From NCBI GenBank assembly GCA_003003615.1, contig PVWD01000034.1, forward strand, positions 1 through 35,026: a DNA stretch of 35,026 nucleotides, written 5' to 3'. Below are positions 13,982 through 31,458 of this stretch, one piece after another. The position numbers and the translations under genes were made by a program. Each line of letters begins with the position of its first letter. The stretch's first letter is position 1. This DNA comes from a filamentous cyanobacterium CCP2. Its GTDB lineage: Bacteria > Cyanobacteriota > Cyanobacteriia > Elainellales > Elainellaceae. A model generated the notes under the pieces. The model made no database searches. It saw nothing but the letters and a program-made list of their open reading frames with translations, and was not told the origin of the DNA.

Positions 13982-16462
13982 GTTTCAGTCCCGTTGCCGG
14001 GATTAGTTGAGTGGAAAGCCAGAGCCGAATTCACCAATTAACAATTGAATAAAAGGGTTTCAGTCCCGTTGCCGGGATTAGTTGAGTGGAAAGACTCCAA
14101 GAGACGAAAGATTAACGACTTCATGATATGTTTCAGTCCCGTTGCCGGGATTAGTTGAGTGGAAAGCAGAAACTTCCTGTGCAAACGCCGGACTAATTAA
14201 CCAGGGTTTCAGTCCCGTTGCCGGGATTAGTTGAGTGGAAAGAATCATGCACTTCGTTGAGCAGATTGGCGATCGAATCGTTTCAGTCCCGTTGCCGGGA
14301 TTAGTTGAGTGGAAAGAATCTGCCTGCGGAATTTCACCTTGAATTTTCTGCATGTTTCAGTCCCGTTGCCGGGATTAGTTGAGTGGAAAGCCCCCCGATT
14401 TGCAGTCAGCCTCAGCCAAGTTTGAAGTTTCAGTCCCGTTGCCGGGATTAGTTGAGTGGAAAGCTTCCGAACATAGGGCGGTTCGGTCACTTTCAGGCTG
14501 AGTTTCAGTCCCGTTGCCGGGATTAGTTGAGTGGAAAGCACAGGGGTCAATGCGCTCGGATTCCGGAAGGGCACTGTTTCAGTCCCGTTGCCGGGATTAG
14601 TTGAGTGGAAAGTTTGATCTGGGACAGATAGAGATTTTGCCTGAAGTGTTTCAGTCCCGTTGCCGGGATTAGTTGAGTGGAAAGATCCTCGTCAAAGGTG
14701 AGTGTGGCAGGCAGAGAAACAGTTTCAGTCCCGTTGCCGGGATTAGTTGAGTGGAAAGGTGGTGGCGGGCCCGGCAAGTTGCCGATCGCCCTTACGGTTT
14801 CAGTCCCGTTGCCGGGATTAGTTGAGTGGAAAGCATCGGCTTTAGGTGGGCGGCAAACGAGATCACGTTTCAGTTTCAGTCCCGTTGCCGGGATTAGTTG
14901 AGTGGAAAGCCTCTACCCACTCCCCAGAAGGAGTCTTTATGGAAGAGTTTCAGTCCCGTTGCCGGGATTAGTTGAGTGGAAAGTTTAGCCCGCGATCGCC
15001 TTTACCAAAACTTGTTCCTCGTTTCAGTCCCGTTGCCGGGATTAGTTGAGTGGAAAGCTTTCCCAGTGGCGAAACCAAAAAAAGGGAAGTGCGTTTCAGT
15101 CCCGTTGCCGGGATTAGTTGAGTGGAAAGCACATGAAGATGCTGCGGTGGTCAGGCAACTTGCAAGTTTCAGTCCCGTTGCCGGGATTAGTTGAGTGGAA
15201 AGTTGTTTGCCTCTGCTTTACCCACAGGACTCACCGACACCCGTTTCAGTCCCGTTGCCGGGATTAGTTGAGTGGAAAGACATCCAAGCCTGTCCAGCCG
15301 CCAAGTCCACCCGCTAACGTTTCAGTCCCGTTGCCGGGATTAGTTGAGTGGAAAGACTACATCGTCAAAAACTCAGTGAAGGCACATCAATCAGCGTTTC
15401 AGTCCCGTTGCCGGGATTAGTTGAGTGGAAAGCTTGACATAGGTTTGACCACCGATCGACTTACTAGCCAAGTTTCAGTCCCGTTGCCGGGATTAGTTGA
15501 GTGGAAAGGAAGCCCCCGATCTCTGCAACTTTGATGATGGCAAAGTTTCAGTCCCGTTGCCGGGATTAGTTGAGTGGAAAGCAGCCGCTTTAGAGCCGCA
15601 GAAGCGGTATCTGTTTTGGTTTCAGTCCCGTTGCCGGGATTAGTTGAGTGGAAAGGTTAAGAGAGGCTTATTCAGAACGGCTTCAAATTGGGTTTCAGTC
15701 CCGTTGCCGGGATTAGTTGAGTGGAAAGCTACTTTCGGACTAGTCGGAAAACTCAACGGAATCAGGTTTCAGTCCCGTTGCCGGGATTAGTTGAGTGGAA
15801 AGCGCTGACTGGAGTACGCTTGGCATCTGCCTTGTGATGTTTCAGTCCCGTTGCCGGGATTAGTTGAGTGGAAAGTTCAAGACGAGTGGGGGCGATCGGG
15901 GGACGGGTGAGTTTCAGTCCCGTTGCCGGGATTAGTTGAGTGGAAAGAAGCTGAAGGGCGCAATTTTGGCAGCCGGTGAAAATGTTTCAGTCCCGTTGCC
16001 GGGATTAGTTGAGTGGAAAGGAGGAGGGCGCGACTGGGTGACGCGGTTCTGGTAAGTTTCAGTCCCGTTGCCGGGATTAGTTGAGTGGAAAGTTGCCAAC
16101 AGTCCTGTACTGCAATTTGGCACAGAGCAAGGTTTCAGTCCCGTTGCCGGGATTAGTTGAGTGGAAAGATACGGCGGAGTTAGCAACAGGGCTGCAATGC
16201 ACTGGTTTCAGTCCCGTTGCCGGGATTAGTTGAGTGGAAAGAGAGCGCGATCGGTCGCCTTGCCACTTTGTATAACGCGTTTCAGTCCCGTTGCCGGGAT
16301 TAGTTGAGTGGAAAGGCAGCAGCCCCCCAGCGAACGCTTCTCTTAGCACGAGGTTTCAGTCCCGTTGCCGGGATTAGTTGAGTGGAAAGCATCGTGACAA
16401 TCGAAATTAATGAGAACATGGAAAAGTTTCAGTCCCGTTGCCGGGATTAGTTGAGTGGAAAG
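13982..16462 (-). CRISPR. Type I-D CRISPR array 1: 34 repeats, 33 spacers
   Basis: A 37-base repeat recurs 34 times at about 74-base intervals, with spacers of about 35-41 bases. On the plus strand the unit runs GTTTCAGTCCCGTTGCCGGG to TTGAGTGGAAAG. Type I-D repeats conventionally end in GGGACTGAAAC, so crRNA is expected from the minus strand, with handle ACTGAAAC and stem TCCCG-GCAA-CGGGA. The leader is therefore on the right (16463 onward) and the newest spacer is next to 16426. I found no variant repeat, not even at the old end near 13982, which suggests little decay. Six spacers contain CGATCG. Confidence 0.99.
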
Positions 16463-16703: not shown

Positions 16704-17561
16704 TTATCGATCGTACCGTTCATAAAGAGCCTGAACCTCTTGTTTCATTCGATCGCGCATTGCGTTAGGTGAAATAATTTCACAATCCTGCCCATATCGC
16801 AAAACTTCCCGCATAAACCAAAATGAGTGGGCAACACGCCGTACCACTCGTCGGACTTGAGGTAGTTCTGCTAACCATTCATTCACCTCATCTTTAGCTG
16901 TTTTACTGCGATAGGCAAAAGCCAATCCTCGGAACAGGTGCATTTCAACCAAAATTGCTGTTAGTTCTGCATACCACTCACCATTCACTGGAGCAATCAC
17001 AGCATCAGTAATGCGATCGATCCGCAAACACCAATTATGAGTTAAATCTGGCAAATCCTGGTTTCCCTCCGTCTCCTCACACCAACAATCTAAATATTGG
17101 CGATCCTCATACGTCACAATTTCCGCATGGCGAATCGTAAATTGCCAAATCCGTTCAGCCGCGTCCTGGTAAGACAACTGAAACGGTTGCTGACGACGAA
17201 TATAACGTTCCACTTCCAACCGCCAAGGAAAAGCCGGTCTTTCAACAAATTGCTCAAGCTCAGTTCTTAGCGGAATTGTCAGTTCACTGCGCTCTAAGAG
17301 CAAATGAGCGATCATCACCGCTGCTTCAATCCGTCCTGCATCAATCAACGCAGTTCGGGCCTGATTTAAAGCATTAATTCGTTCCTTTGTCCAATCATGA
17401 TTCGGTGCAATCACCAGTTGCCGACGGGCGATCGCCTCCACCAACCTGGAAATATTGGGACGATCGCCCCAAGTCATACCAAATTCTAGAGCTAGTGCTT
17501 CTAGCTTTGATTTGTCTAACTCGGAAACTGATAGTGTAACTGACTGACCTCGACGACCCAT
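16704..17561 (-). CDS. WYL-domain transcriptional regulator of the CRISPR locus
   Basis: I start this 285-residue protein at the ATG at 17561 (MGRRGQSVTLSVSELD); a longer frame to 17636 would overlap the cas3' start region. Residues 1-50 look like a ribbon-helix-helix DNA-binding unit (a strand followed by helices KSKLEALALEFG and NISRLVEAIARRQL). Residues about 120-190 resemble a WYL domain (RQQPFQLSYQDA, then HAEIVTYEDRQYLDCWCEE). WYL proteins bind nucleic-acid ligands and often control CRISPR loci; in cyanobacteria at least one acts as a repressor. It is divergent from cas3' by 84 bases and lies upstream of array 1 on the same strand, so it may control both. Confidence 0.8.
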   Translation of the reverse strand: MGRRGQSVTLSVSELDKSKLEALALEFGMTWGDRPNISRLVEAIARRQLVIAPNHDWTKERINALNQARTALIDAGRIEAAVMIAHLLLERSELTIPLRTELEQFVERPAFPWRLEVERYIRRQQPFQLSYQDAAERIWQFTIRHAEIVTYEDRQYLDCWCEETEGNQDLPDLTHNWCLRIDRITDAVIAPVNGEWYAELTAILVEMHLFRGLAFAYRSKTAKDEVNEWLAELPQVRRVVRRVAHSFWFMREVLRYGQDCEIISPNAMRDRMKQEVQALYERYDR

Positions 17562-17645
17562 TTGTACGTACACTTTGAACTTGACTATTCCTAGTATGGA
17601 TGACAGTATGGATGTATTGCAAGCAGTTACGTGCACATTACTGCG
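17562..17645. promoter_or_regulatory. Divergent wyl/cas3' promoter region with a 10-bp direct repeat
   Basis: The only gap between the two halves of the CRISPR locus. AGTATGGATG occurs twice, at 17593-17602 and 17605-17614, a 12-base period. TTGACT at 17581-17586 could be a plus-strand -35 box with a weak CAGTAT at 17604-17609. Ribbon-helix-helix proteins commonly bind tandem sites of about this spacing, so the repeat is a candidate operator for the WYL regulator (inference). Confidence 0.5.
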
Positions 17646-19820
17646 ATGACGGATTATTCAATTACGCTCAAGCCTGTATATTCCTTTCCTGCTGACGATG
17701 TGCCGAAAGGGGTAAAGATGCCCGAAGGATGGACGCTTTCCTGGCATCAAGCAGAAACTCTTAAGGCACTACGTGATCCAAGTGTAGATGTGGTATTCAA
17801 CACGTCAATGACGGGAGATGGAAAGAGTTTGGCAGCTTATTTGGAAGTGCTACAAGGAGAGTATTCAGCGATCGGATTGTATCCAACTAATGAACTAGCA
17901 CGAGATCAAGAAAATCAAACCAATGATTACGTTACTCAATTTAAACCTGCTAACAATCCGCGTGTGGTTCGTTTAAGTGGTGCAGAGTTAGAAATCTATG
18001 CAGAAAATGAAGGGTTAAGAAAAAGTTCTGCGATCGCCACTCGCACCAGCCAGTCAGAAGTATTACTCACTAATCCAGATATTTTTCATTATCTCCATCG
18101 AGGAGCCTATTTAACTCCAGACGATAGTCCTGACAAACTATGGGGGCGAATCGACAAAGATTTTGATCTGTTTATTTTTGATGAATTTCATGTCTTTGCT
18201 GCGCCTCAAATCGCTAGTGTAATTAACACAATGCTGCTAATTCATTGTACTAATCGACGCAAAAAATTCTTGTTTTTGTCTGCAACTCCAGATGAACAAC
18301 TCATTCAACGTCTAAGGCAAGCTAGTTTCCGTTGTAAAGTCATTAATCCAATTGAAAAAGATAAATATCAATTTCCAGAAACGTTGAAGCAGCAGCAAGA
18401 ACTGAAGTCGATGAATTGGCGACAAGTTGCCCGTTCAATTCAACTTAACTTTATTTCTTTAGATTCGGGAGCAAAAGCATCAGAAACCTGGCTCAAGGAA
18501 AATGCAGCTTTAATCGCATCCCATTTTCAACAACATCCTGGAAGTAAAGGTGCGATCATTCTCAACTCGATCGCTGCTGTCAAACGGCTCACGCCCTTCT
18601 TTCAGGAACTTCTAAAACCATTAGGCTTAACCGTTGGTGAGAATACCGGACTTTCAGGACGAGCAACCCGTGAACAATCCCTTTCAGCCGATCTAGTACT
18701 CGGAACTAGCACGATCGATGTTGGCGTTGATTTCAAAATCAATTTCCTCATCTTTGAATCATCCGATGCTGGAAATTTTATCCAGCGGTTAGGGCGATTA
18801 GGGCGACATGATGGCTACAAGCGTGATGGTATTGAAATTCCGTTTGATCAATTTATCGCCTACGCACTTGTCCCTAACTTCTTTGCAGAACGATTGTTTG
18901 AAGCAGAAGCGCATCCTCTAGAGCCTAATGAAACTTATGATCGCCCCTTCCTAAATAACACGATTTGGGACAATTACCGAACGATTAATGATTTTCGGGG
19001 TTACTATTCTCGCTGGGGTGCAGTGCAGTCTTTTCGTTTGTTTTATGACTTAGGGCATCGCACTGTTCCTCACTATGCTGAGAGCCGAGAACGGTTTAGG
19101 GAAAGTTGTGAAAAAGTTTTCAATACGACTCTTAAATCGGTTGCAGGCCGAGTCAGTGGTTGGGCAAAAGAATGGCAGCAGATCTCAGGAAAGAAGGGAA
19201 ACCCGATCGCAGATGATGCTTGCAGTTTTCGAGGTTCCAGTCCGTTGCAGTGTGGTCTATATGATTTAACAGAACCCAATGAAGCCGATCGCTTCAAGAC
19301 GTATGACCTATCTGGAATCTTAAGCAATTTAGGGATCGAATTTTGGACGGAAGCGGCTTTTATGCGATCGCTGCAAGAAACTGCCACTCGCACCCAACAA
19401 CCCATTCCGAAAGGGCGTTTTGCTCACTGTCTCGCGTTTATGAAGTTAGTCAGTTACCGCGAGGAGCGATCGAACTGGAAGTTTGCTTATTCTGGCAATT
19501 TGGGAGACAAGGCAAATGTTTACACAGTACAAGTCCTGACAGGAATCGAAATTTACCAACCGGAGAATCGTTGGGCAGCCGAAATTAACAAGCGGCTGAG
19601 AAAGGAGGGGCTAGTCTGCTATATCATGCGTTATCCAGTACATGAAGTTCGATTAAAACTACGCTTACCTATGCACTTTCAAATTTATCCCATCAGCGAC
19701 AATTACAGCTTTCATGATGCTACTGCCCCCTATGCGATCGCCTTCGGGCAAAGTGCCCTATTACTAGACACCCTTGCCTACCAATTGAAAACCAAAGGAG
19801 GCGATCCTTTAATCTTCTAA
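17646..19820 (+). CDS. cas3: Type I-D CRISPR helicase Cas3' (no HD domain)
   Basis: From the ATG at 17646 the protein has 724 residues (a GTG five codons upstream is possible). It is a superfamily 2 helicase. Walker A is the unusual MTGDGKS (55-61), the DExH box is DEFH (179-182), motif III is LSATP (211-215), and motif VI is in QRLGRLGRHDGYKR. No HD nuclease segment is present. In type I-D the HD nuclease resides in Cas10d, so this is the family-typical split arrangement. It would be recruited to target-bound Cascade to unwind DNA. It is the first gene of the cas operon; its stop is one base from the degenerate repeat at 19822. Confidence 0.93.
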   Translation: MTDYSITLKPVYSFPADDVPKGVKMPEGWTLSWHQAETLKALRDPSVDVVFNTSMTGDGKSLAAYLEVLQGEYSAIGLYPTNELARDQENQTNDYVTQFKPANNPRVVRLSGAELEIYAENEGLRKSSAIATRTSQSEVLLTNPDIFHYLHRGAYLTPDDSPDKLWGRIDKDFDLFIFDEFHVFAAPQIASVINTMLLIHCTNRRKKFLFLSATPDEQLIQRLRQASFRCKVINPIEKDKYQFPETLKQQQELKSMNWRQVARSIQLNFISLDSGAKASETWLKENAALIASHFQQHPGSKGAIILNSIAAVKRLTPFFQELLKPLGLTVGENTGLSGRATREQSLSADLVLGTSTIDVGVDFKINFLIFESSDAGNFIQRLGRLGRHDGYKRDGIEIPFDQFIAYALVPNFFAERLFEAEAHPLEPNETYDRPFLNNTIWDNYRTINDFRGYYSRWGAVQSFRLFYDLGHRTVPHYAESRERFRESCEKVFNTTLKSVAGRVSGWAKEWQQISGKKGNPIADDACSFRGSSPLQCGLYDLTEPNEADRFKTYDLSGILSNLGIEFWTEAAFMRSLQETATRTQQPIPKGRFAHCLAFMKLVSYREERSNWKFAYSGNLGDKANVYTVQVLTGIEIYQPENRWAAEINKRLRKEGLVCYIMRYPVHEVRLKLRLPMHFQIYPISDNYSFHDATAPYAIAFGQSALLLDTLAYQLKTKGGDPLIF

Positions 19821-19821
19821 T

Positions 19822-19936
19822 GTTTCAGTCCCGTTGCCGGGATTCATTGAGTGACGGAGAGAAAACAAATAGCTTGCGCCATTAAGTTCAGACTTATTTG
19901 TTTCAGTCCCGTTGTCGGGATTCGCACTTAATACCT
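19822..19936 (-). ncRNA. Degenerate mini-CRISPR: candidate crRNA-like guide RNA (CreA/CreR-like)
   Basis: Read on the minus strand, a pseudo-repeat at 19936-19900 is followed by a 41-base pseudo-spacer (19899-19859) and a second pseudo-repeat (19858-19822). Both pseudo-repeats keep the hairpin (TCCCG-ACAA-CGGGA and TCCCG-GCAA-CGGGA) and the ACTGAAAC handle, so Cas6 processing looks possible. The 5' half of the first is unrelated to the consensus; the second keeps the CACTCAA of array 1, so it derives from that repeat type. The pseudo-spacer starts AAATAAGTCTGAACTTAA and matches 20011-20028 at 17 of 18 positions. Transcription is not shown; TTGAGG at 20039-20034 is one weak candidate -35. It runs antisense toward cas3'. 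Confidence 0.7.
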
Positions 19937-19998
19937 TGTAATCGCACCAAGCCTCCGTCGCCACTTCAAGTCTATCAGTCTTAGGTCAAGTCCTGATC

Positions 19999-20028
19999 TA
20001 TTTAACGGTTAAATAAGTCTTAACTTAA
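19999..20028 (+). promoter_or_regulatory. Candidate target of the crRNA-like RNA: palindrome plus GTT PAM plus seed match
   Basis: TATTTAACGGTTAAATA at 19999-20015 is a perfect palindrome with 8-base arms and one central base. Its right arm contains GTT at 20008-20010, the expected type I-D PAM (GTN), directly followed by AAATAAGTCTTAACTTAA (20011-20028), which matches the pseudo-spacer with only position 11 different. Pairing stops after position 18, as expected for repression without cleavage. The palindrome could also be the site of a separate DNA-binding protein. Confidence 0.65.
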
Positions 20029-20046
20029 AAAATCCTCAAAATCCTC

Positions 20047-20075
20047 TTGCGATCGGCTATCGATTAGGTTAGCTT
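20047..20075 (+). promoter_or_regulatory. Weak candidate promoter downstream of the guide target
   Basis: TTGCGA (20047-20052) and TAGCTT (20070-20075) are separated by 17 bases and resemble a weak sigma-70-type promoter. A full-length bound protospacer from 20011 would end at about this -35 box. It would drive the small ORF at 20150 and perhaps the mntA-hepT-cas10d genes. Only loose consensus matches support it. Confidence 0.3.
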
Positions 20076-20149
20076 TTGATCACCAGAGCAAAAAGTAGTT
20101 CATTTGAACTTATTGCTTTGTAGAAAACCCAAATTATATGGAAAACTCC

Positions 20150-20347
20150 ATGAAAAGCTTGAAGAAGACCAAAATCGACTTGCTGCTCGAAGTTCTTGCA
20201 GACGGCGAGTGGCACTGGGCAGACGAGCTTGCTGTTAAAGTCGGTTGGCGATTTGCAGATCCAGTTCAGCGAGCCAGATTGAAGGGACATCTGATTGAAA
20301 CTGATCGAGTTGGACTACAGCATCGATATCGTCTACGTAAACTCTAA
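20150..20347 (+). CDS. Small winged-helix-like protein (65 aa)
   Basis: The likely start is the ATG at 20150, preceded at suitable distance by GGAAAA; an in-frame ATG at 20138 would add four residues. The sequence (KIDLLLEVLADGEWHWADEL, then AVKVGW, RARLKGHLIE, RYRLRKL) reads as helix, turn, helix and a basic strand, resembling a minimal winged helix. I do not recognise a named family. It follows the guide target site and precedes the toxin-antitoxin pair, so it could be their regulator or a third component. An out-of-frame basic ORF from 20295 is a shadow. Confidence 0.5.
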   Translation: MKSLKKTKIDLLLEVLADGEWHWADELAVKVGWRFADPVQRARLKGHLIETDRVGLQHRYRLRKL

Positions 20348-20574
20348 TCGAATTTGCTGCTGCTACATGGGATTCTCTACTGATTTAGTGGAGAATCCTA
20401 CACCAGAGAGGGAAGTTTATAAACAGCTTTCGGCGTTAAGTGCAAACATAGGCAGCCTCCGCCCCCTAGAGTTATAGGCTGGTGAGAGTCACCAAGTAAG
20501 TACCAAAACAAAGAAACGTTAATTCTTTAAAGGTTTCCCTCTCTATGAATTCAACTTAATCAAGAAGTCCAGCC
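20348..20574 (+). other. Gap before mntA with two hairpins
   Basis: GGATTCTCTAC (20370-20380) pairs with GTGGAGAATCC (20388-20398) around a 7-base loop, with one G-U pair; no T-run follows, so it is not a standard terminator. Further on, GGTGA-GAG-TCACC forms a smaller hairpin near 20482-20494. The region could be a 5' leader controlling the toxin-antitoxin genes, or a small RNA. I cannot match it to a known riboswitch. Confidence 0.4.
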
Positions 20575-21246
20575 ATGAATGAGTACAGCTTAGTAGAGCG
20601 AATCACTTTAAATCCTGAAATTCTAAATGGACAGCCTGTAATTCGGGGTGTTCAGGTGTTGGTTGAGCAAATTTTGGGAATGCTAGCAGCGGGTGAAACA
20701 TTCCAAAGCATCATGGAGAAACATCCGGGGTTAGTGCAGGAAGATATTCAGGCTTGTTTGGTTTATGCTCGTCAACTGGTTCAGCGTGAACGGGTAGCGC
20801 GATGGCAACCGCGATCGCTCGAAGACCTGCAATCTGCCCTCCCTCAGATCTTGGAGCAGGCTCCTTACATTAAACTGCTGGTGCTGTTTGGGTCTAGAGC
20901 TAGAGGCGATCACAACGAAAAAAGCGATTGGGATTTCGCATTTTTATGTGATGAGGAACTGCGTAAACAGTATGAGAAAGGCGGCTGGGACGCTTATCGC
21001 ATCTGGGGCATTTTGCAAGATGCTTACGATCTTGGAGATGAACAAATTGATGTAGTTGAGATGAAAGATTGTTCAGATATTTTGGCACACTCTGTTGCTC
21101 GTGATGGAAGAGTTGTATATGAGCAAGATACAGGGGAGTTTGATCGCTTTCAACAGCGGGCATTGATGAATCAAGCGCAACTCAAAGCGATTCGTCAGCA
21201 GCAACGAGAAAAGCTTCAAGCCACGTTGAAGGAACTTAAGCGATGA
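20575..21246 (+). CDS. mntA: MNT-type antitoxin with N-terminal DUF433 domain
   Basis: The 223-residue protein has two parts. Residues 5-75 (RITLNPEILNGQPVIRGVQV, then VYARQLVQRERV) are a DUF433 domain, a small helix-turn-helix-like module typical of antitoxins. Residues about 95-180 are a minimal nucleotidyltransferase with GS(X)10DXD: G106-S107, D118 and D120, and a third acid at D159 (EQIDVVEM). In HEPN/MNT systems the MNT protein inactivates the HEPN RNase by attaching AMP to its tyrosine. The gene shares ATGA with the next gene, the normal MNT-HEPN coupling. It lies inside a cas operon, where such a pair is not part of the standard I-D set. The symbol follows the family. Confidence 0.87.
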   Translation: MNEYSLVERITLNPEILNGQPVIRGVQVLVEQILGMLAAGETFQSIMEKHPGLVQEDIQACLVYARQLVQRERVARWQPRSLEDLQSALPQILEQAPYIKLLVLFGSRARGDHNEKSDWDFAFLCDEELRKQYEKGGWDAYRIWGILQDAYDLGDEQIDVVEMKDCSDILAHSVARDGRVVYEQDTGEFDRFQQRALMNQAQLKAIRQQQREKLQATLKELKR

Positions 21247-21719
21247 AAGACTTTCAACCCATTGAAGTTGGCAACAAATTAACGAATATGGGAAAAAGGT
21301 TGCGACGGCTCAACCGCTATCAAACTCTTACCTTGAACGAGTATTTACAAGACGAAGATTTACAAAGCATTATTGAGCGTTTACTTGAACAAGTCATTCA
21401 ATCTGCTCTTGATATTAACCGAGCTTTCCTCAAGCGGGTCGCTGGAATTTCGTTGGAAAGTGAAAAAGTGCCAACGAATGCTGAAACATTCACTTTAGTT
21501 GCTCAATATGGGTTGATTTCTTTGGAACTAGGACAGCAAATGAAAAAGTCAGGCGGGTTCCGTAACGTTCTCGCTCATTTATATGACGAAATTATTCCCG
21601 AGAAGGTTTATGAGGCTTTGCAGAACGCTTTAACTGATTATCCTGAATATCTTGCAGAAGTTGAAAACTATTTGAATCTCTTGGAGCAGGCGGATGCCGA
21701 AGAAAATTCAGAATCATGA
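21243..21719 (+). CDS. hepT: HepT-like HEPN toxin (RNase)
   Basis: The 158-residue helical protein carries the HepT active-site motif RX4HXY as R107-N-V-L-A-H112-L-Y114. In characterised HepT proteins R and H form a composite RNase site, and the Y is the residue AMPylated by MntA. All three are intact, so the toxin is predicted active. The start overlaps the mntA stop by four bases, and the last 26 bases overlap the start of cas10d in another frame, which implies coupled translation with the CRISPR large subunit. That tight fit argues against a very recent random insertion. Confidence 0.87.
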   Translation: MKDFQPIEVGNKLTNMGKRLRRLNRYQTLTLNEYLQDEDLQSIIERLLEQVIQSALDINRAFLKRVAGISLESEKVPTNAETFTLVAQYGLISLELGQQMKKSGGFRNVLAHLYDEIIPEKVYEALQNALTDYPEYLAEVENYLNLLEQADAEENSES

Positions 21720-24700
21720 CTCAGCGCAGCTACCGCTTTTTGAAATAGAAGAAACGCCAGTAGCGATTGATTTAGATCAATTAGATGATTTGCTAGAGGA
21801 TGAATTTGGATTTGATGGGGAGCCAGCCGATCGCACTATTGAATCCACTCAACGCGAATTACTTACGCTCAAGCTCCTACGTGAAGCGATTCGATCTCAA
21901 AACCCCGATGATGTTGTCATGCGAGATTTCGCTGAATATGTATTGCCTAATTTATTGAAAGTGGCGATCGGTGTAACCGCAAAAGGAGGTAAGTTCTTTG
22001 ATGATCTGGATCAACAACGAGAAGCGCAAGGTAAGGCGAGAGTTCGACGTGACAATGCAGCCGATCAATCTCTCAATACCCATTTGCTTAATGGTTTATT
22101 TCCAGCCAATTTAATTGAACAACGGCTTGAAAAGTTAGACACGACGATTAAACGTGTGGTCAGAGAATGTGAGCGACGGCTAGTGATTGCCGGATTTATT
22201 CTGCATGACATTGAGAAGTTTCCTGACTCTCCTGATAACTGCCGCAAACTTCCTTTAGAACAACAACGGCAGCTTTTTGAGCAGAAGATCCAGCAATTAG
22301 GGATTGATCGTTTCATCAATCCCGATGCTCTGGAAGTATATAAGGAATACCTTGATGATTTGATGTGCATTGCGTTCAATGCCCAACGTCGCTGGGATAC
22401 CAATTGGAACTTTTCAGAGTATGGGTTAAATCCAGCATTAAAAGATCGATCGCTTCGTCAGTTGGCTGATTTGACTTGTTTAGCAGACTCCCTTGCTTCT
22501 ATTGTCAAACATCCCCAAGACGCAGAACATTACAGGTTAACGGAACTGCTTCATAATCTGAGTGATGGACAACTTAAGTTTACCTATCACAGCATTTCTG
22601 AGAATCGGGGTGTACTTACCAACGTTGTTAATAATGCCGTGATGGAAGCTTATGTAAGTCTCAATATTGAGAATTGTACTTACTATGAACCACTTCTCTA
22701 CTTACCTACTGGTGTTATTTATTTAGCACATAAAGATGCGCCACCCATTGATTCACAAGTCTTACCCGATCGCGTTGTCACCAAAATCAAGCAGCTTTGC
22801 TTTGAACAATTGCGCCTACGACAAACGGGATTTGGGCGTGATGGCAAAGGCATGAAGTACGCCGATTATTACACCTTGTTTTGCGACGATCGCGGCTTAA
22901 TGCAGATTGCACTAGATGCAACTTTACGAATTTTGACTCCTAACAAAAGTTCAGTTGCACCCAGTCGCAGTGCAAAGTTAGTGGAATTTCAGCAGCAGGG
23001 AGTTTTATCAGCAGACGATGATTTCCGGCTTAAAGACGATATTCGGGTGGATCAATTTGCCGAATTTGGAGATGTGATTAGCCGTAAAATTTGGGGCGAT
23101 CGGGTTGAACGAATTGAGCAGTTTAGGAAAGAGCAATTGCAGGCACGAAAGAAAAATAAATCACTTCTTGGACTTCCACCTGTCGAACTAGCTGCGAAAG
23201 ATCTTGTGCATAAAGTAGCTGAGTTTCTAGGATTAGCCCAATACTCTCCTCAAATTCGAGAGATTCAGCACATTAACGAAACCCTCAAGGAAATGAAGCT
23301 CAAAGGCAATACGGGAGGTGTTCCCTACGAGTGGTATTTTCTAGCCACCAAGTTTATTGAAGGATCGGGAATTGAGAATATTCGAGAGACTGGTGAAAAG
23401 ATTATCGCGTACTTAGCTGAACTGATTGAACCGATCGCGGCTCAGTATTCATTACCAGACGGATGGGATGACTTGCGTGAATGGGTCAAACGGGTTGTAA
23501 TGCTTCCCGGCAATGCTCAAAAGCAGAACGCCACCGAACAGGCTGATATCTTCTTAAAAGAATTAACCAGTTACAATGCTGCGAAAAAAATTGGACGGGG
23601 AAAGCTAGCGATCTGTTCAATTTCTCACTCTGCTTACTCTGTCAAAGAGCAAATGGAATCAGAGGTTTTATTCACACCGCAAGTTTACACCAACAAACAA
23701 ATGTTGGGAGGTTCAAATGCCAAGCGTAATATTTCTAGTATTGCTGCGTTAGAGATGATGCTGCGCCAAATTTTGATGAACCAAACACAGGCAGTTGGCA
23801 AACGATTTGAAGATGGTAAGTATCGCTATCTTTATTTCTATCCCACCTATTACTTCACGCCAGAAACAAACAAATTTTTGCAAAAAGCTTACAGCGGCAT
23901 TGCTCAAACTCGCTTTGATACAAATATTCGCAACCACTTTATTCCTAAAGATTTGGAAGCAAATTTTGAACGATCCCGTTACCAAACGGTAGATGCTTTT
24001 TTAATTGATGAAGATCTCGATCGCAAGAAAGCATTACCCGAAAATGATCCTCAATACAAACGCGACAGAACTTTTAAACTCTCCTATCCTGACGATCAGC
24101 CCCTAACTTTCTACTTCATGGCATTGCCACCTGGAAAAGACCCGACCGATACTGAATCGTGGGTGATGCCTACTTGGTTAGCATTTGCCTTCCCCATGAT
24201 TCTGGATGTTAAAACAGTTGTTTCAGAATCTCCCATTCCTCCCTTCAACGATGGTGCTGAATTTGAGGAAAGTGTATTTCTGGATAGCGCGCCGCAGGCA
24301 TTTCGAGTATTAACAGGACACGATCGGTTGCGATTAGATTACATTCTGGAAGGTTGGAAGGCTCCTGATGGCAGTCAACACCCTGCACCATTGAATGTTC
24401 TTACGGCTGCCTATGCCATCCACCTAGATGTTAATGCTAAGCAAGGTAAAGGTGGCTATGATGCCAATTGGGGCAAACTAACAGAGTTGGCGAAAGACTT
24501 TGAAACTAGCCCGCTTTATGTATTCAGCTATCTTAATCGTTGGGTACGCAATCAAGCTAGTGAAACCGCCCGAATTGAGAAAATTCGGCTTTATGCGTAT
24601 CGTTTCTATCCATGCTTTGATCCCTATGTTGAATTTGATGTCGTGTCGGAGAGATTAACCGTGAAAGATGAAGGAAAATCGTCCATCAATCATCCCCAGA

Positions 24701-25143
24701 AACTAACAGATTTGTATCGCAAATTCTACAGAGCAAACAAACGTTATAATCCCAAAGCTAATGCTGTTTTGAAACCGATCGATGTTGCGGCTGATGTCAT
24801 TCTCAAAGCAGAATCCACCGTATTTCAAGGCGGCACACTCGTTGTCGCGGTCGCTTCTGAGGTGTTCAAACTGATGGATCGGGTTCGTGCTGCACGGGCT
24901 GAAGGCTTTGCGATGATTCCAGATCGGGAAGAGGAACGGCAAGCCATTTTGGATTTTGCCAGATACTTTGTAGTTGAAGTATTTGAGAAATCATTTTCTG
25001 GCGATCGGGCTCGTCTTGCAGGTCGGCAACTCAATTTGTTACGCGATACCTGCGAATTTCTCTATCGCCTTGAACAGGACAAAGAAAACCGGGAACGAAA
25101 AGAAAAAGGCGAACCAGGAAACGATGAGAACGGTGATGACTGA
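21694..25143 (+). CDS. cas10d: Type I-D large subunit / HD nuclease Cas10d (Csc3)
   Basis: The 1149-residue protein is the signature of subtype I-D: a Cas10-related large subunit of Cascade fused to an N-terminal HD nuclease. HD-type residues are visible at H130 (LNTHLLNGL) and H171-D172 (ILHDIEKF). The middle is expected to hold the degenerate palm domain. The C-terminal about 160 residues are helical and correspond to the Cas11-like part. GGAGCAGG upstream of the ATG at 21694 lies inside hepT and serves as the ribosome site. HD cleavage with Cas3' unwinding destroys target DNA. Codon use is AT-richer than in the flanking trehalose and purD genes. Confidence 0.93.
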   Translation: MPKKIQNHDSAQLPLFEIEETPVAIDLDQLDDLLEDEFGFDGEPADRTIESTQRELLTLKLLREAIRSQNPDDVVMRDFAEYVLPNLLKVAIGVTAKGGKFFDDLDQQREAQGKARVRRDNAADQSLNTHLLNGLFPANLIEQRLEKLDTTIKRVVRECERRLVIAGFILHDIEKFPDSPDNCRKLPLEQQRQLFEQKIQQLGIDRFINPDALEVYKEYLDDLMCIAFNAQRRWDTNWNFSEYGLNPALKDRSLRQLADLTCLADSLASIVKHPQDAEHYRLTELLHNLSDGQLKFTYHSISENRGVLTNVVNNAVMEAYVSLNIENCTYYEPLLYLPTGVIYLAHKDAPPIDSQVLPDRVVTKIKQLCFEQLRLRQTGFGRDGKGMKYADYYTLFCDDRGLMQIALDATLRILTPNKSSVAPSRSAKLVEFQQQGVLSADDDFRLKDDIRVDQFAEFGDVISRKIWGDRVERIEQFRKEQLQARKKNKSLLGLPPVELAAKDLVHKVAEFLGLAQYSPQIREIQHINETLKEMKLKGNTGGVPYEWYFLATKFIEGSGIENIRETGEKIIAYLAELIEPIAAQYSLPDGWDDLREWVKRVVMLPGNAQKQNATEQADIFLKELTSYNAAKKIGRGKLAICSISHSAYSVKEQMESEVLFTPQVYTNKQMLGGSNAKRNISSIAALEMMLRQILMNQTQAVGKRFEDGKYRYLYFYPTYYFTPETNKFLQKAYSGIAQTRFDTNIRNHFIPKDLEANFERSRYQTVDAFLIDEDLDRKKALPENDPQYKRDRTFKLSYPDDQPLTFYFMALPPGKDPTDTESWVMPTWLAFAFPMILDVKTVVSESPIPPFNDGAEFEESVFLDSAPQAFRVLTGHDRLRLDYILEGWKAPDGSQHPAPLNVLTAAYAIHLDVNAKQGKGGYDANWGKLTELAKDFETSPLYVFSYLNRWVRNQASETARIEKIRLYAYRFYPCFDPYVEFDVVSERLTVKDEGKSSINHPQKLTDLYRKFYRANKRYNPKANAVLKPIDVAADVILKAESTVFQGGTLVVAVASEVFKLMDRVRAARAEGFAMIPDREEERQAILDFARYFVVEVFEKSFSGDRARLAGRQLNLLRDTCEFLYRLEQDKENRERKEKGEPGNDENGDD
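24661..25143 (+). CDS. cas11d: Candidate internal translation start for small subunit Cas11d
   Basis: Within cas10d and in the same frame, GGAGAG at 24648-24653 lies 7 bases before a GTG codon at 24661 (Cas10d V990). Initiation there would give a 160-residue C-terminal protein. It is established for type I-D that Cas11d is made from an internal start in cas10d. The ribosome site is strong for this operon and its spacing ideal, so I predict this as the start; nearby alternative starts cannot be excluded. Confidence 0.55.
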   Translation: MKDEGKSSINHPQKLTDLYRKFYRANKRYNPKANAVLKPIDVAADVILKAESTVFQGGTLVVAVASEVFKLMDRVRAARAEGFAMIPDREEERQAILDFARYFVVEVFEKSFSGDRARLAGRQLNLLRDTCEFLYRLEQDKENRERKEKGEPGNDENGDD

Positions 25144-25204: not shown

Positions 25205-26197
25205 ATGGCATTTCTTAAGACTGTCGATTCCAAGTTTTTTCACGACGCGATTCCCTACAAACCGATGGGCAAGTATGCTCATTTCCTAACCATTCGTGTG
25301 ACAGAATCCTACCCGTTGTTTCAGACTGATGGTGAACTGAATAAGGCACGAGTTCGGGCGGGAATTGAAGACCCTACTCCCTTCAGCCGTCTGGCAATGT
25401 TCAAACGCAAGCAATCTACTCCGGAACGATTGGTAGGGCGAGAATTGCTTCGCTCCTACGGTTTAATCACTGCTGAGGAGTGTGAGTATAACGTTAAATT
25501 TGCAATGAACAATCCTGATTGCATTATTTATGGATTTGCGATCGGTGATTCTGGTTCTGAAAAATCCAAAGTCGTTGTGGACACTGCTTTCTCGATTACG
25601 GCTTTTGATGAATCTCACGAAACCTTCACCCTGAATGCACCTTTTGAAAATGGCACGATGAGCAAGCAAGGGGAAGTGACAAGTCGGATCAATCAACAAG
25701 ATCATATCCGTCCGCAAGTATTTTTTCCCAGCATCGTAACGCTCAAAGATCCCACAGAGGCAAGCTTTTTGTATGTGTTTAATAACATTTTGCGAACGCG
25801 GCATTATGGTGCCCAGACCACTCGTACAGGAAGAGTTCGGAACGAGCTAATTGGTGTCGTATTTGCCGATGGAGAGATTACTAGCAATCTACGGTGGACT
25901 CAAGCCATTTATGACGGAATGAAAGCGCAAAATACCCTTCGTTTGACCGATCCACTGAACGAAGATGATGTGATGATGGCGGCCAAATCTGCGATCGAAA
26001 AACTCATGGCTGAAGAATTCATTGTTTACACGAGCTTGATTGGTGATACGTTCAAACCTTTATTGGATGAGGTTAAAACGATTACAGGACATGAAGCAAC
26101 AATGAAAACGATGCTGCAAAAGGCAATGGATGAGTCAAACGCCTATTTTGCTGCTTATGTTGAGAAGCCTAAAAAATCAACTGCAAAAGCAGGATAG
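25205..26197 (+). CDS. csc2: Type I-D Cascade backbone protein Csc2 (Cas7d)
   Basis: The 330-residue protein begins MAFLKTVDSKFF and has the Csc2 layout; several copies polymerise along the crRNA spacer to form the Cascade backbone. A TCAGGAGAC ribosome site lies 6-10 bases upstream of the ATG. It follows cas10d by 61 bases and precedes csc1 by 6 bases, the standard I-D order. No truncation is seen. The C-terminus ends in a basic KPKKSTAKAG tail. Confidence 0.92.
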   Translation: MAFLKTVDSKFFHDAIPYKPMGKYAHFLTIRVTESYPLFQTDGELNKARVRAGIEDPTPFSRLAMFKRKQSTPERLVGRELLRSYGLITAEECEYNVKFAMNNPDCIIYGFAIGDSGSEKSKVVVDTAFSITAFDESHETFTLNAPFENGTMSKQGEVTSRINQQDHIRPQVFFPSIVTLKDPTEASFLYVFNNILRTRHYGAQTTRTGRVRNELIGVVFADGEITSNLRWTQAIYDGMKAQNTLRLTDPLNEDDVMMAAKSAIEKLMAEEFIVYTSLIGDTFKPLLDEVKTITGHEATMKTMLQKAMDESNAYFAAYVEKPKKSTAKAG

Positions 26198-26203
26198 TAG
26201 CCA

Positions 26204-26914
26204 ATGACAATGATTTATCACTGCACTCTGGAACTACATGATAGCCTTTACTTTGCAACTCGTGAAATTGGACGGCTGTACGAAACAGAGCCAGTTTTGC
26301 ACAATTACGCGCTTTCCTATGTGTTGGGATTAGTTGACAATCCTCGTTTCAAAACGGTTGTTGCAGAAGAATATTCCTACCGCTATTTTTGTGCCGAACA
26401 AGTGCCTAAGTACAAGGAGCATTTAACGCCGCTCAATCAGCAAGGTATTTATGTGACTCCGGGTAAAGCGTTGAACTATGCTGCAATCTTGAACACATGG
26501 AAGTATGCAGATAATCGCTATCACGTTGAGATGAAGCAAACGGAAAAAAATATTCCTAGCTTTGGCAGAACCAAAGAAATTGCACCAGAAAGCCTCTTTG
26601 AGTTTCTCGTAATGTCTGAGCAGCCTTTAACCTTGCCTCGATGGGTGCGTATTGGCAAATGGGCAAGCAAAGCAAAATTGGAAGTGCAAGAACTATCAAA
26701 ACCTAAACACAACCAGGCAAAGGAGTTTACTTGTTCTCATCCGCTCAATCCCTTAGATGTGATGTTTACCAATCAAGTGTTGAGCTATGACACGATCAAC
26801 ATGCCTCCAGTCAGCCTAATTCGCAATGTGCGAATGATTGGTGAATATTACACCTTTGATGAATTGCCAGAGGTAAAACTTCCGGTGCAGATGCAGTATC
26901 GCTTTGCGGGTTAA
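26204..26914 (+). CDS. csc1: Type I-D Cascade protein Csc1 (Cas5d)
   Basis: The 236-residue protein is the Cas5-like subunit that caps the 5' crRNA handle and contacts the PAM side of the target. Its position directly between csc2 and cas6 and its length fit the family. The region RTKEIAPESLFEFLVMSEQP and the late LPRWVRIGKWASKAK segment resemble Csc1 proteins. A second ATG is at 26210. The gaps to both neighbours are 5-6 bases, so translation is likely coupled. Confidence 0.88.
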   Translation: MTMIYHCTLELHDSLYFATREIGRLYETEPVLHNYALSYVLGLVDNPRFKTVVAEEYSYRYFCAEQVPKYKEHLTPLNQQGIYVTPGKALNYAAILNTWKYADNRYHVEMKQTEKNIPSFGRTKEIAPESLFEFLVMSEQPLTLPRWVRIGKWASKAKLEVQELSKPKHNQAKEFTCSHPLNPLDVMFTNQVLSYDTINMPPVSLIRNVRMIGEYYTFDELPEVKLPVQMQYRFAG

Positions 26915-26919
26915 ACACC

Positions 26920-27732
26920 ATGCCCTACAGCCTCGTCCTCAACCTTCTCCCCCGATCGCCCATTCCCCAGGCTCATCTCAGCGGTCGTCATTTGCACGCT
27001 CTGTTTCTTGACCTGGTGCGCTCGGTTGATCCGGACTTAGCCAAAACACTGCACCAACAGCAGTCAGAAAAAGCATTTACCTTGAGTCCATTGCAAGTGG
27101 GCAACCGCAAAAAGAACCTACTGCAATGGCAGCACGATCGCTCTGTTCCTGCTGGTACTCCTTGCTGGTGGCGCATTTCATTATTAGATGATGCCTTATT
27201 TGGCAAACTCATGCACCTGTGGCTGAATCTTAGCCCGTCGCAAGCGTGGCATTTAGGAGCAGCAGATTTGCAGGTGGTGAATGTTTTAGGAACGCCTCAA
27301 GCCCATCAATCCTGGGCAAATTTTGCAACCTATGCTCAACTCTATGAGCAAGCCTCAGAGGAGGAACGACAAATCCACTTCCAGTTCTGTACACCCACCA
27401 CCTTTCGGCAAACAAAGTATGATTGTGCGTTACCAACGAAGGAATTTGTATTTCAAGGCTTGTTGCGAAAGTGGAATCATTACAGTGGAATGAGCTTTCC
27501 TGAAATCGTTCTAGATCAAATCTATCCTAGCTTTTTTGATATTCGCACGGAGATTGCGATCGACAGTCGCAGTAAGTTCATTGGTTGTGTGGGAAAGGTG
27601 ACGTTTCAGATTCTAGGAGAAGTCGAGGCAGAAATCATTCAACAAATCAATGCGCTGGCAGATTTTGCGATTTTTGCTGGAGTTGGGCGCAAAACTCCAA
27701 TGGGTATGGGCATGGTGCGGCGTAATCAGTGA
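26920..27732 (+). CDS. cas6: CRISPR repeat endoribonuclease Cas6
   Basis: The 270-residue protein cuts the repeat hairpin to give crRNAs with the ACTGAAAC handle. Two RAMP-like halves are expected; the diagnostic glycine-rich loop GVGRKTPMGMGMV is at 254-266, very near the C-terminus. The last codons and the TGA stop lie in a short tandem repeat (first unit 27723-27736) that continues downstream, so the natural C-terminus may have been slightly changed by insertion of the repeat. It would also be the enzyme expected to process the pseudo-repeats at 19.8 kb. Confidence 0.92.
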   Translation: MPYSLVLNLLPRSPIPQAHLSGRHLHALFLDLVRSVDPDLAKTLHQQQSEKAFTLSPLQVGNRKKNLLQWQHDRSVPAGTPCWWRISLLDDALFGKLMHLWLNLSPSQAWHLGAADLQVVNVLGTPQAHQSWANFATYAQLYEQASEEERQIHFQFCTPTTFRQTKYDCALPTKEFVFQGLLRKWNHYSGMSFPEIVLDQIYPSFFDIRTEIAIDSRSKFIGCVGKVTFQILGEVEAEIIQQINALADFAIFAGVGRKTPMGMGMVRRNQ

Positions 27733-30315: not shown

Positions 30316-31458
30316 CTTTCAATCAAAAAAATCCCGGCAACGGGACTGAAACACGGCTGTTGGAAAATCCAGCAGATGCCTCTGCTTGATCTTTCAATCA
30401 AAAAAATCCCGGCAACGGGACTGAAACATCTCTGTTCCAGCAGGACTGAGAATTGAGCGAGTCGACTTTCAATCAAAAAAATCCCGGCAACGGGACTGAA
30501 ACTCTCAATCAATCAATCTCTTTTGATGTAGAATAATTCCAACTTTCAATCAAAAAAATCCCGGCAACGGGACTGAAACTGTAAAAAATGGAAACTTTAT
30601 TTGATTTGTTCAATGGTCTTTCAATCAAAAAAATCCCGGCAACGGGACTGAAACGCGTCGAGAGCCACTAGCAAAATTCCCGAACGACTTCTTTCAATCA
30701 AAAAAATCCCGGCAACGGGACTGAAACCCGAACTGGGCAGCCGGATTGTTTATCAATTCGTCCACTTTCAATCAAAAAAATCCCGGCAACGGGACTGAAA
30801 CCAAAAAGATGCCGCACTCGATCGCGTTGTAGTCCAACTTTCAATCAAAAAAATCCCGGCAACGGGACTGAAACCAAGCCAGCGAACCCGCTCAAGGCTT
30901 ACATGAAGCGGCTTTCAATCAAAAAAATCCCGGCAACGGGACTGAAACCCAACCGCTCAACCTGCGGCGTGAAACCCTACATTAGACTTTCAATCAAAAA
31001 AATCCCGGCAACGGGACTGAAACATAAAGCTGCTAATTGCGGTCAGGTCAGCATTGGAACTTTCAATCAAAAAAATCCCGGCAACGGGACTGAAACTCTC
31101 AGACTGGAAAACGATCGATCCTGTTTCTGTGCTTTCAATCAAAAAAATCCCGGCAACGGGACTGAAACCAGCCGATTGCCCGTCTAAAACTCTCAGTCTT
31201 CCCACTTTCAATCAAAAAAATCCCGGCAACGGGACTGAAACGAGTTGCAGGACAGGTTCACCCATCGCTACTCTCGCTTTCAATCAAAAAATCCCGGCAA
31301 CGGGACTGAAACACCACCCCACAAATTCGGCAGCAAATTCAGCGGTTCTTTCAATCAAAAAAATCCCGGCAACGGGACTGAAACCACACCGGCAAGCAGC
31401 ATACCTTTTCTGACATCCATACTTTCAATCAAAAAAATCCCGGCAACGGGACTGAAAC
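30316..31458 (+). CRISPR. Type I-D CRISPR array 2: 16 repeats, 15 spacers
   Basis: The 37-base repeat runs CTTTCAATCAAAAAAATC then CCGGCAACGGGACTGAAAC. Its last 23 bases equal those of array 1, while the 5' part differs (AATCAAAAA versus CACTCAACT). Spacers are about 35-39 bases. The copy at 31277 lacks one A in the A-run; the others look identical. Orientation is plus, with the leader on the left, so the newest spacer follows 30352. Two spacers contain CGATCG. Confidence 0.99.

Follow-up and report, generated by a model that had tools for sequence, protein, structure and literature searches.

Type I-D has been proposed to connect the DNA-targeting type I with the RNA-targeting type III systems. 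Experimental cases of CreR are known from the I-B, I-E and V-A subtypes, and we know of no RNA-level arm described for such guides. A survey by Shmakov et al. (NAR, 2023) reportedly covers conserved mini-arrays with standalone repeats that are partly complementary to cas promoters or cargo; the mini-array discussed here has the same features, and a leader such as its partner R2 is not known to feature in that survey. CreR has been described for type I and V-A (reviewed in PMC12737573), and in CreTA and CrePA the antitoxin RNA CreA represses a toxin (PMC9458426, PMC12737573).

The locus considered here lies in a window (the whole stretch of DNA that was analysed, 35,026 nt of contig PVWD01000034.1, assembly GCA_003003615.1) from the filamentous cyanobacterium CCP2. 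As with CreR, a mini-array with degenerate repeats is found in a cas locus and shows a partial, PAM-flanked match to the presumed promoter of the effector genes, for which repression without cutting is predicted; a crRNA-like gene, a PAM-flanked match in the presumed cas-proximal promoter region and a match of seed-only length are all found. Unlike CreR, the system belongs to type I-D and has two DNA targets, facing or in tandem, and what remains of the guide fits, with a 6-nt periodicity, a structured leader RNA in that operon (R2). As far as sequence can tell, the core finding is a type I-D case of CreR-like autoregulation, and the new part would be a second, RNA-level target, to which the remainder of the same guide points. 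We regard it as quite probable that one guide loads the I-D effector and that cas genes are thereby autoregulated through both promoter DNA (targets T1 and T2) and the leader RNA R2, with both arms probably negative.

The mini-array, its DNA targets and the neighbouring genes

The window holds a type I-D locus with cas3', an MNT/HepT cargo, cas10d, csc2, csc1, cas6 and two arrays. Within this locus and outside the arrays, a two-repeat mini-array occupies positions 19822-19925 of the minus strand. Its downstream repeat, psiR2 (19822-19858, minus strand), begins 1 nt past the stop codon of the upstream gene, which encodes the type I-D helicase Cas3' (17631-19820, plus strand); it contains AATCCCGGCAACGGGACTGAAAC intact and gives a weak Rfam match to CRISPR-DR52. 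The upstream repeat, psiR1 (19900-19925, minus strand; AATCCCGACAACGGGACTGAAAC), consists of a stem-loop and the ACTGAAAC handle and has one change relative to the core of the array repeat. Both repeats are degenerate and retain a Cas6 stem-loop, which folds in each of them, and an 8-nt handle. Between them lies the guide, a pseudo-spacer of 41 nt (19859-19899, minus strand; AAATAAGTCTGAACTTAATGGCGCAAGCTATTTG...), whose positions 1-16 match T1 and positions 4-32 match R2. The two arrays of the locus (13982-16462 and 30342-31458) are in opposite orientation, and their repeats are alike in the 3' half and different in the 5' half. A gene for a WYL/WCX-type regulator (16704-17636, minus strand) is divergent from cas3'; a regulator of this type is reported to control the I-D system in Synechocystis (PMC10212523).

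The first target, T1 (20008-20028, plus strand), comprises a GTT PAM at 20008-20010 and an 18-nt partial protospacer at 20011-20028. The guide sequence AAATAAGTCTGAACTTAA agrees with the protospacer AAATAAGTCTTAACTTAA at 17 of 18 positions, the mismatch being at position 11. No match of this quality was reached in 20,000 Markov-1 resamplings of the gap (19926-20137), and in the same resamplings a GTN-flanked site with at least 15/18 matches occurred with a frequency of 5e-5. A second target, T2 (19986-20006, minus strand; AAATAGATCAGGACTTGA), lies on the creR side, with its protospacer at 19986-20003 and its GTT PAM at 20006-20004; it opposes T1 head-to-head, an arrangement also found in at least 13 relatives. 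The PAMs of T1 and T2 are one base apart (AAC-G-GTT, within 19986-20010), and tandem targets occur in other relatives. An earlier note, made from the letters of this DNA, had already described two degenerate repeats around a 41-base pseudo-spacer, an 18-base match with one mismatch at position 11 behind GTT, and the improbability of such a match by chance. The match and its improbability hold as described; the elements of the mini-array are all present, with psiR1 identifiable over its 3' ~26 nt only. Two further statements do not survive, namely that the likeness to the guide ends after 18 bases, as T2 and a PAM-less partner at 20422-20450 also match the guide, and that the target lies directly before a toxin-antitoxin pair, as ORF1 and R2 intervene.

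A candidate promoter of the plus-strand operon (20047-20075, plus strand; TTGCGA-N17-TAGCTT) directly follows the 36-nt footprint of T1, and several relatives have TTGACA at the same site. A clear TTGACA-N17-TAnnnT promoter is present in many relatives, its -35 box lying at protospacer position 24-38; across many loci, -35-like boxes lie at protospacer position 1 or 24-38, with modest statistics. In seven loci (L063, L076, L078, L081, L083, L093 and L105) the seed of the guide coincides with the -35 hexamer that the cas-side promoter is presumed to have. A strict sigma-70 scan of the window region found no promoter, and a softer promoter score averaged 9.09 against 8.35 for shuffles (sd 0.79), with the window itself not above shuffles. 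This enrichment is moderate, and the promoter part therefore counts as supporting only.

The first gene past T1 is the unannotated ORF1 (20150-20347, plus strand; an in-frame ATG at 20138 is possible), which encodes a 65-aa protein with a predicted winged-helix fold (AlphaFold pLDDT 87; best folds ArsR-like, with weak E-values). It is conserved as the first gene after T1 within the window's guide family, and unrelated small ORFs take this place in other families. There follow the cargo genes, i.e., a DUF433 plus MntA-type nucleotidyltransferase gene, which is the first gene of the R2-led operon (20575-21246, plus strand), and a gene for a HepT-type HEPN RNase (21243-21719, plus strand), which overlaps the start of cas10d. 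The latter (also csc3; 21694-25143, plus strand) encodes the PAM-recognising large subunit, is the usual downstream gene in relatives and is the presumed object of regulation; csc2 (cas7d), csc1 (cas5d) and cas6 complete the effector operon (25205-27732, plus strand).

This gene order bears on whether the guide serves as an antidote. The locus resembles CreTA and CrePA in its psiR-psiS-psiR guide, its partial match to a presumed promoter, the presumed use of the effector as a repressor and the presence of a toxin-antitoxin pair nearby; it differs in that the common controlled gene would be cas10d, that the toxin-antitoxin genes are variable cargo and that ORF1 is regulator-like. A CreTA/CrePA-like addiction module, in which the guide restrains a toxin (ORF1 or MNT/HepT) that is freed upon loss of the effector, would fit with ORF1 being the first gene past T1, with the tendency of each guide family towards its own type of ORF1 and with MNT/HepT following in the window. 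However, the predicted fold of ORF1 in the window is that of a regulator, the cargo varies freely, and in two loci (L081 and L104), which lack ORF1 as well as cargo, cas10d comes immediately after T1; we consider such a module unlikely. Since cas10d directly follows T1 in these two loci, it is the common denominator, and the variability of the cargo, together with this arrangement, favours CreR-like autoregulation of cas genes over a CreA-like toxin antidote.

Guides and targets across cyanobacterial type I-D loci

A class-wide search for cas3' in 390 genomes gave matches in 82 and yielded 80 discovery loci; the guide set was sampled at one genome per species. With the window included, a recognisable guide lies right after the cas3' stop codon in 58 loci. 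The guide sequences are unrelated among families (for example AAATAnGTCTG.., TTCCGnnGCT.., ATGACnTA.., ACAGAnTCAT.., TTGCGnCATCT.. and ACTATnGCCTT..). When the target was chosen as the best guide match within the next 500 nt with the PAM ignored, this match nevertheless lay behind GTN in 53/58 discovery loci (GTT in 29, GTC in 23 and GTA in 1), compared with 5% for shuffled guides, and the real match scores were far above controls. A GTN-flanked target is found in 57/58 discovery loci, 22 of which have two targets, head-to-head or in tandem. A validation set of 80 named loci, which contributed 45 unique new gaps, of which 29 contain a guide, was treated by the same procedure; GTN was found at the best match in 24/29, and mismatches again peaked at positions 6 and 12. 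In the combined sets, 87 distinct cyanobacterial type I-D loci, representing 19 guide families, have a guide at the same place, and a GTN-flanked partial match lies just upstream in 80/87 of them and in 18/19 families.

The position of the mismatches is informative as well. The type I-D PAM is GTN, and bases are flipped out at every sixth position (PMC10212523). At T1, with 17 positions equally weighted in the discovery loci, the mismatch frequency reaches.68 at both position 6 and position 12 and does not exceed.22 at the others of positions 1-16, and the matches stop at about position 16. In 15 of the 18 guide families that have a target, mismatches are most numerous in the 6n phase. The mismatches at 6 and 12 thus look like the footprint of base pairs flipped out at every sixth position by an effector with a Cas7 backbone.

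These regularities also bear on two other accounts. In the first, a DNA-binding protein, such as the WYL regulator or the winged-helix ORF1, has its operators in the paired motifs, and the likeness to the guide is secondary. Within the window's guide family, T1 and T2 do form a dyad (TTTAACgGTTAAA), and the guide and T1 both contain TAAGTnnnnACTTA; however, in other families both sequences are wholly different and still match in register behind GTN with positions 6 and 12 free, and a protein site leaves the register after the repeat, the PAM and the 6-nt phase unexplained, which makes this account very improbable. The second, a decayed CRISPR array remnant with a spacer that matches itself by chance, could appeal to the degenerate repeats, but it hardly deserves belief given that the position, the mini-array form and the matched target recur in the 80 loci mentioned above and that the window match has a frequency of about 0 among shuffles.

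Guides and targets change together. A guide matches its own target at 9.4/10 positions and the targets of other loci at 4.0/10. The earlier note had reasoned that independent drift of pseudo-spacer and target among homologous loci would speak against a CreA/CreR-type guide for type I-D; such drift was not seen, since guide and target remain matched in 80/87 loci spread over the 19 families and change together, and the proposal of such a guide, with predicted repression, is supported. Its emphasis on the toxin-antitoxin pair fared less well, in that MNT/HepT does follow in the window but belongs to the variable cargo, which L081 and L104 lack.

It should be noted that roughly one in four to one in three I-D loci have no guide. 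Plasmid pSYSA of Synechocystis PCC 6803, considered as a model strain, has no cassette, and its cas3' and cas10d nearly abut. When the guide families are placed on a cas3' tree built from 56 loci, they do not group together, 10 groups requiring 20 changes; this suggests joint replacement of guide and target, in most cases along with ORF1 and R2. L062 and L063 are sister rows on this tree and have different cassettes. Such scatter, with unrelated cassettes in close sisters, resembles what may be expected under diversifying exchange. Two loci call for separate comment: the guide of L046 is seemingly one base short at its 5' end relative to its relatives, which would shift its register against its target and may reflect decay or an assembly error, and L223 lies on a contig labelled as a Gammaproteobacteria MAG with a cyanobacterial-type I-D cas3', probably through a binning error.

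A leader RNA complementary to the guide

When guide positions 7-32 were scored equally against the minus strand of the gap, a second, PAM-less partner (R2) was found in 33/58 discovery loci, with 18-24/26 matches, the second-best sites mostly reaching 13-16. In the window, R2 is a structured leader RNA (20405-20544, plus strand) that ends 30 nt before the MNT start codon; its guide-complementary part (20422-20450, plus strand) pairs with guide position 4 at 20450 and position 32 at 20422 and has no GTN PAM. The strand complementary to the guide corresponds to plus-strand RNA. In the 33 discovery loci, mismatch frequencies are.64,.64,.64,.85 and.88 at positions 6, 12, 18, 24 and 30, whereas most of the remaining positions between 4 and 30 have 0-.24, with values near zero at 10, 11, 14-17, 19, 23 and 25-29. 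Positions 8 (.52; largely U-G wobble in one family) and 21 (.55) are often mismatched as well, and guide positions 1-3 are left unpaired (.48-.79). In the validation set, R2 was found in 17/29 loci, with mismatches of.82,.82,.71,.82 and.88 at the same five positions. Overall, R2 is present in 50/87 loci, and 37/87 guides lack it. It is confined to two guide clusters, and its periodicity, which holds in both, therefore rests on few independent origins. Guides swapped within a family fit R2 worse than its own guide does (permutation p <= 2e-4). The ratio of G-U wobbles to transitions is equal at paired and free positions of R2, a comparison that does not separate RNA from DNA recognition.

As an element, R2 is ~140 nt long and bounded by a closing stem, P1 (AGAGAGGGAAGTTTATAAA / TTTAAAGGTTTCCCTCTCT in the window), whose sequence varies among relatives while its pairing is kept (GAAGAGGGAGGC/GCCTCCCTCTTC and AGAGAGAGAAGC/GCTTCTCTCTCT); in L053, the helix is quite different. 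The stem was derived by pairwise comparison, and RNAalifold on a MAFFT alignment did not recover it because of register shifts. The window R2 folds with z = -2.8, and a search of 20405-20544 against Rfam gave no match at E <= 1. By covariance model, R2 occurs once per genome in 23/390 genomes, all 23 of which are guide-bearing I-D genomes. In nearly all loci, 15-80 nt separate its end from the first start codon of the operon, whether this belongs to cargo or to cas10d. A compact and complete cassette (guide, T1, ORF1 and R2) lies directly before cas10d in the culturable Picosynechococcus sp. PCC 7117 (L229, 7240-7822); in the coordinates of NZ_CP016482, its guide is near 253239-253274, its T1 at 253349-253369 and its R2 at 253687-253821.

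With long complementarity but neither a PAM nor positions 1-3, R2 does not qualify as a normal dsDNA target. Single-stranded RNA is bound by I-D Cascade with an apparent affinity of 11 nM, whatever the flanking sequence (PMC9123187), and this guide-dependent, PAM-independent binding is the property that R2 would need; the binding was measured in vitro with an artificial target. The Cas7d of the Sulfolobus I-D system cuts ssDNA at 6-nt intervals, and I-D interference in vivo has been shown against dsDNA only (PMC10212523). If R2 is an RNA target of the CreR-loaded effector, this would explain the missing PAM, the phase, the leader position and the conservation of the 3' part of the guide.

What such binding would do is a further matter. 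R2 might act as a sponge: T1 would work as proposed above, and the derepressed leader would capture the CreR-loaded effector, giving positive feedback and a switch. In favour of this, the guide-complementary R2 is part of a transcript presumably under T1 control, and in the TTCCG family it begins about 45 nt past T1, near the presumed 5' end of the transcript, as would suit a sponge. However, Sulfolobus Cas7d is a single-strand nuclease (PMC10212523), so that the leader is no less likely to be cut or blocked, and we regard the sponge as possible but less likely.

Proposed regulation and phage-borne copies

In the negative regulation that we favour, the minus-strand mini-array would be transcribed, cut by Cas6 and loaded as a crRNA-like guide into the I-D effector (Cas10d-Cas7d-Cas5d). 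Through positions 1-16, which pair with the GTN-flanked T1 and T2 between creR and the cas10d operon, the complex would bind both sites, with T1 on or beside the presumed -35 region of the cas-side promoter and T2 toward the creR side. The short match would stop a productive R-loop, with no cut by Cas3', and RNA polymerase would be blocked. The same loaded complex may recognise R2 independently of a PAM through positions 4-32, whose pairing follows the 6-nt periodicity, and would most likely block or cut the cas10d mRNA as a second negative loop. Self-cleavage would be avoided at T1 because the match is short and at the DNA of R2 because there is no PAM and no pairing at positions 1-3. Both brakes would be released if crRNA rose or if an anti-CRISPR took the effector away, and phages carrying a copy of the guide would keep them on.

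Such copies do exist. A search with a handle-plus-guide pattern found the mini-array, with stem, handle, both parts of the full guide and the second repeat, in three IMG/VR viral contigs of 56-85 kb (L230, 7752-7771, plus strand; L236, 7924-7943, minus strand; L235, 2080-2099, plus strand); in each, the guide is complete and belongs to the GAATA subfamily. L230 and L236 are the same phage (99.99% over 9.8 kb), so the three contigs represent two phages. A TTGACA-N17-TAAGAT promoter precedes the mini-array in L230/L236, and the phage regions examined encode tail/baseplate proteins, an integrase and a recombination directionality factor and have no cas genes. At non-flipped positions, the phage guide matches host T1 at 14/15 and host R2 at 19-20/22. 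The simplest reading is that the phages keep the brake of the host on, with predicted repression of host cas10d. For other subtypes, the survey by Shmakov et al. is said to propose that phage mini-arrays shut down effector genes. Phage hits to the TTCCG, AYGAC and ACAGA guide families either had no repeat stem or fell within coding sequence and are consistent with chance, as is L272, and no match to the phage mini-array was found in the INPHARED phage genomes.

On balance, we lean towards a fuller picture in which one crRNA-like guide lets the effector act on promoter DNA (PAM and positions 1-16) and on the mRNA leader R2 (positions 4-32), hosts exchange the cassette as a whole and a phage copy keeps the effector off. 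That phages carry copies and that cassettes are exchanged rapidly suggests that the regulator itself is contested in an arms race. CreR-like autoregulation would also be placed in most of the I-D systems sampled from the window's cas3' clade of cyanobacteria. If this is true, R2 would be, to our knowledge, the first RNA that a type I effector targets naturally. As a concrete and conserved candidate, with a mismatch pattern that fits effector binding, it makes the question of RNA recognition by type I-D testable in a culturable strain.
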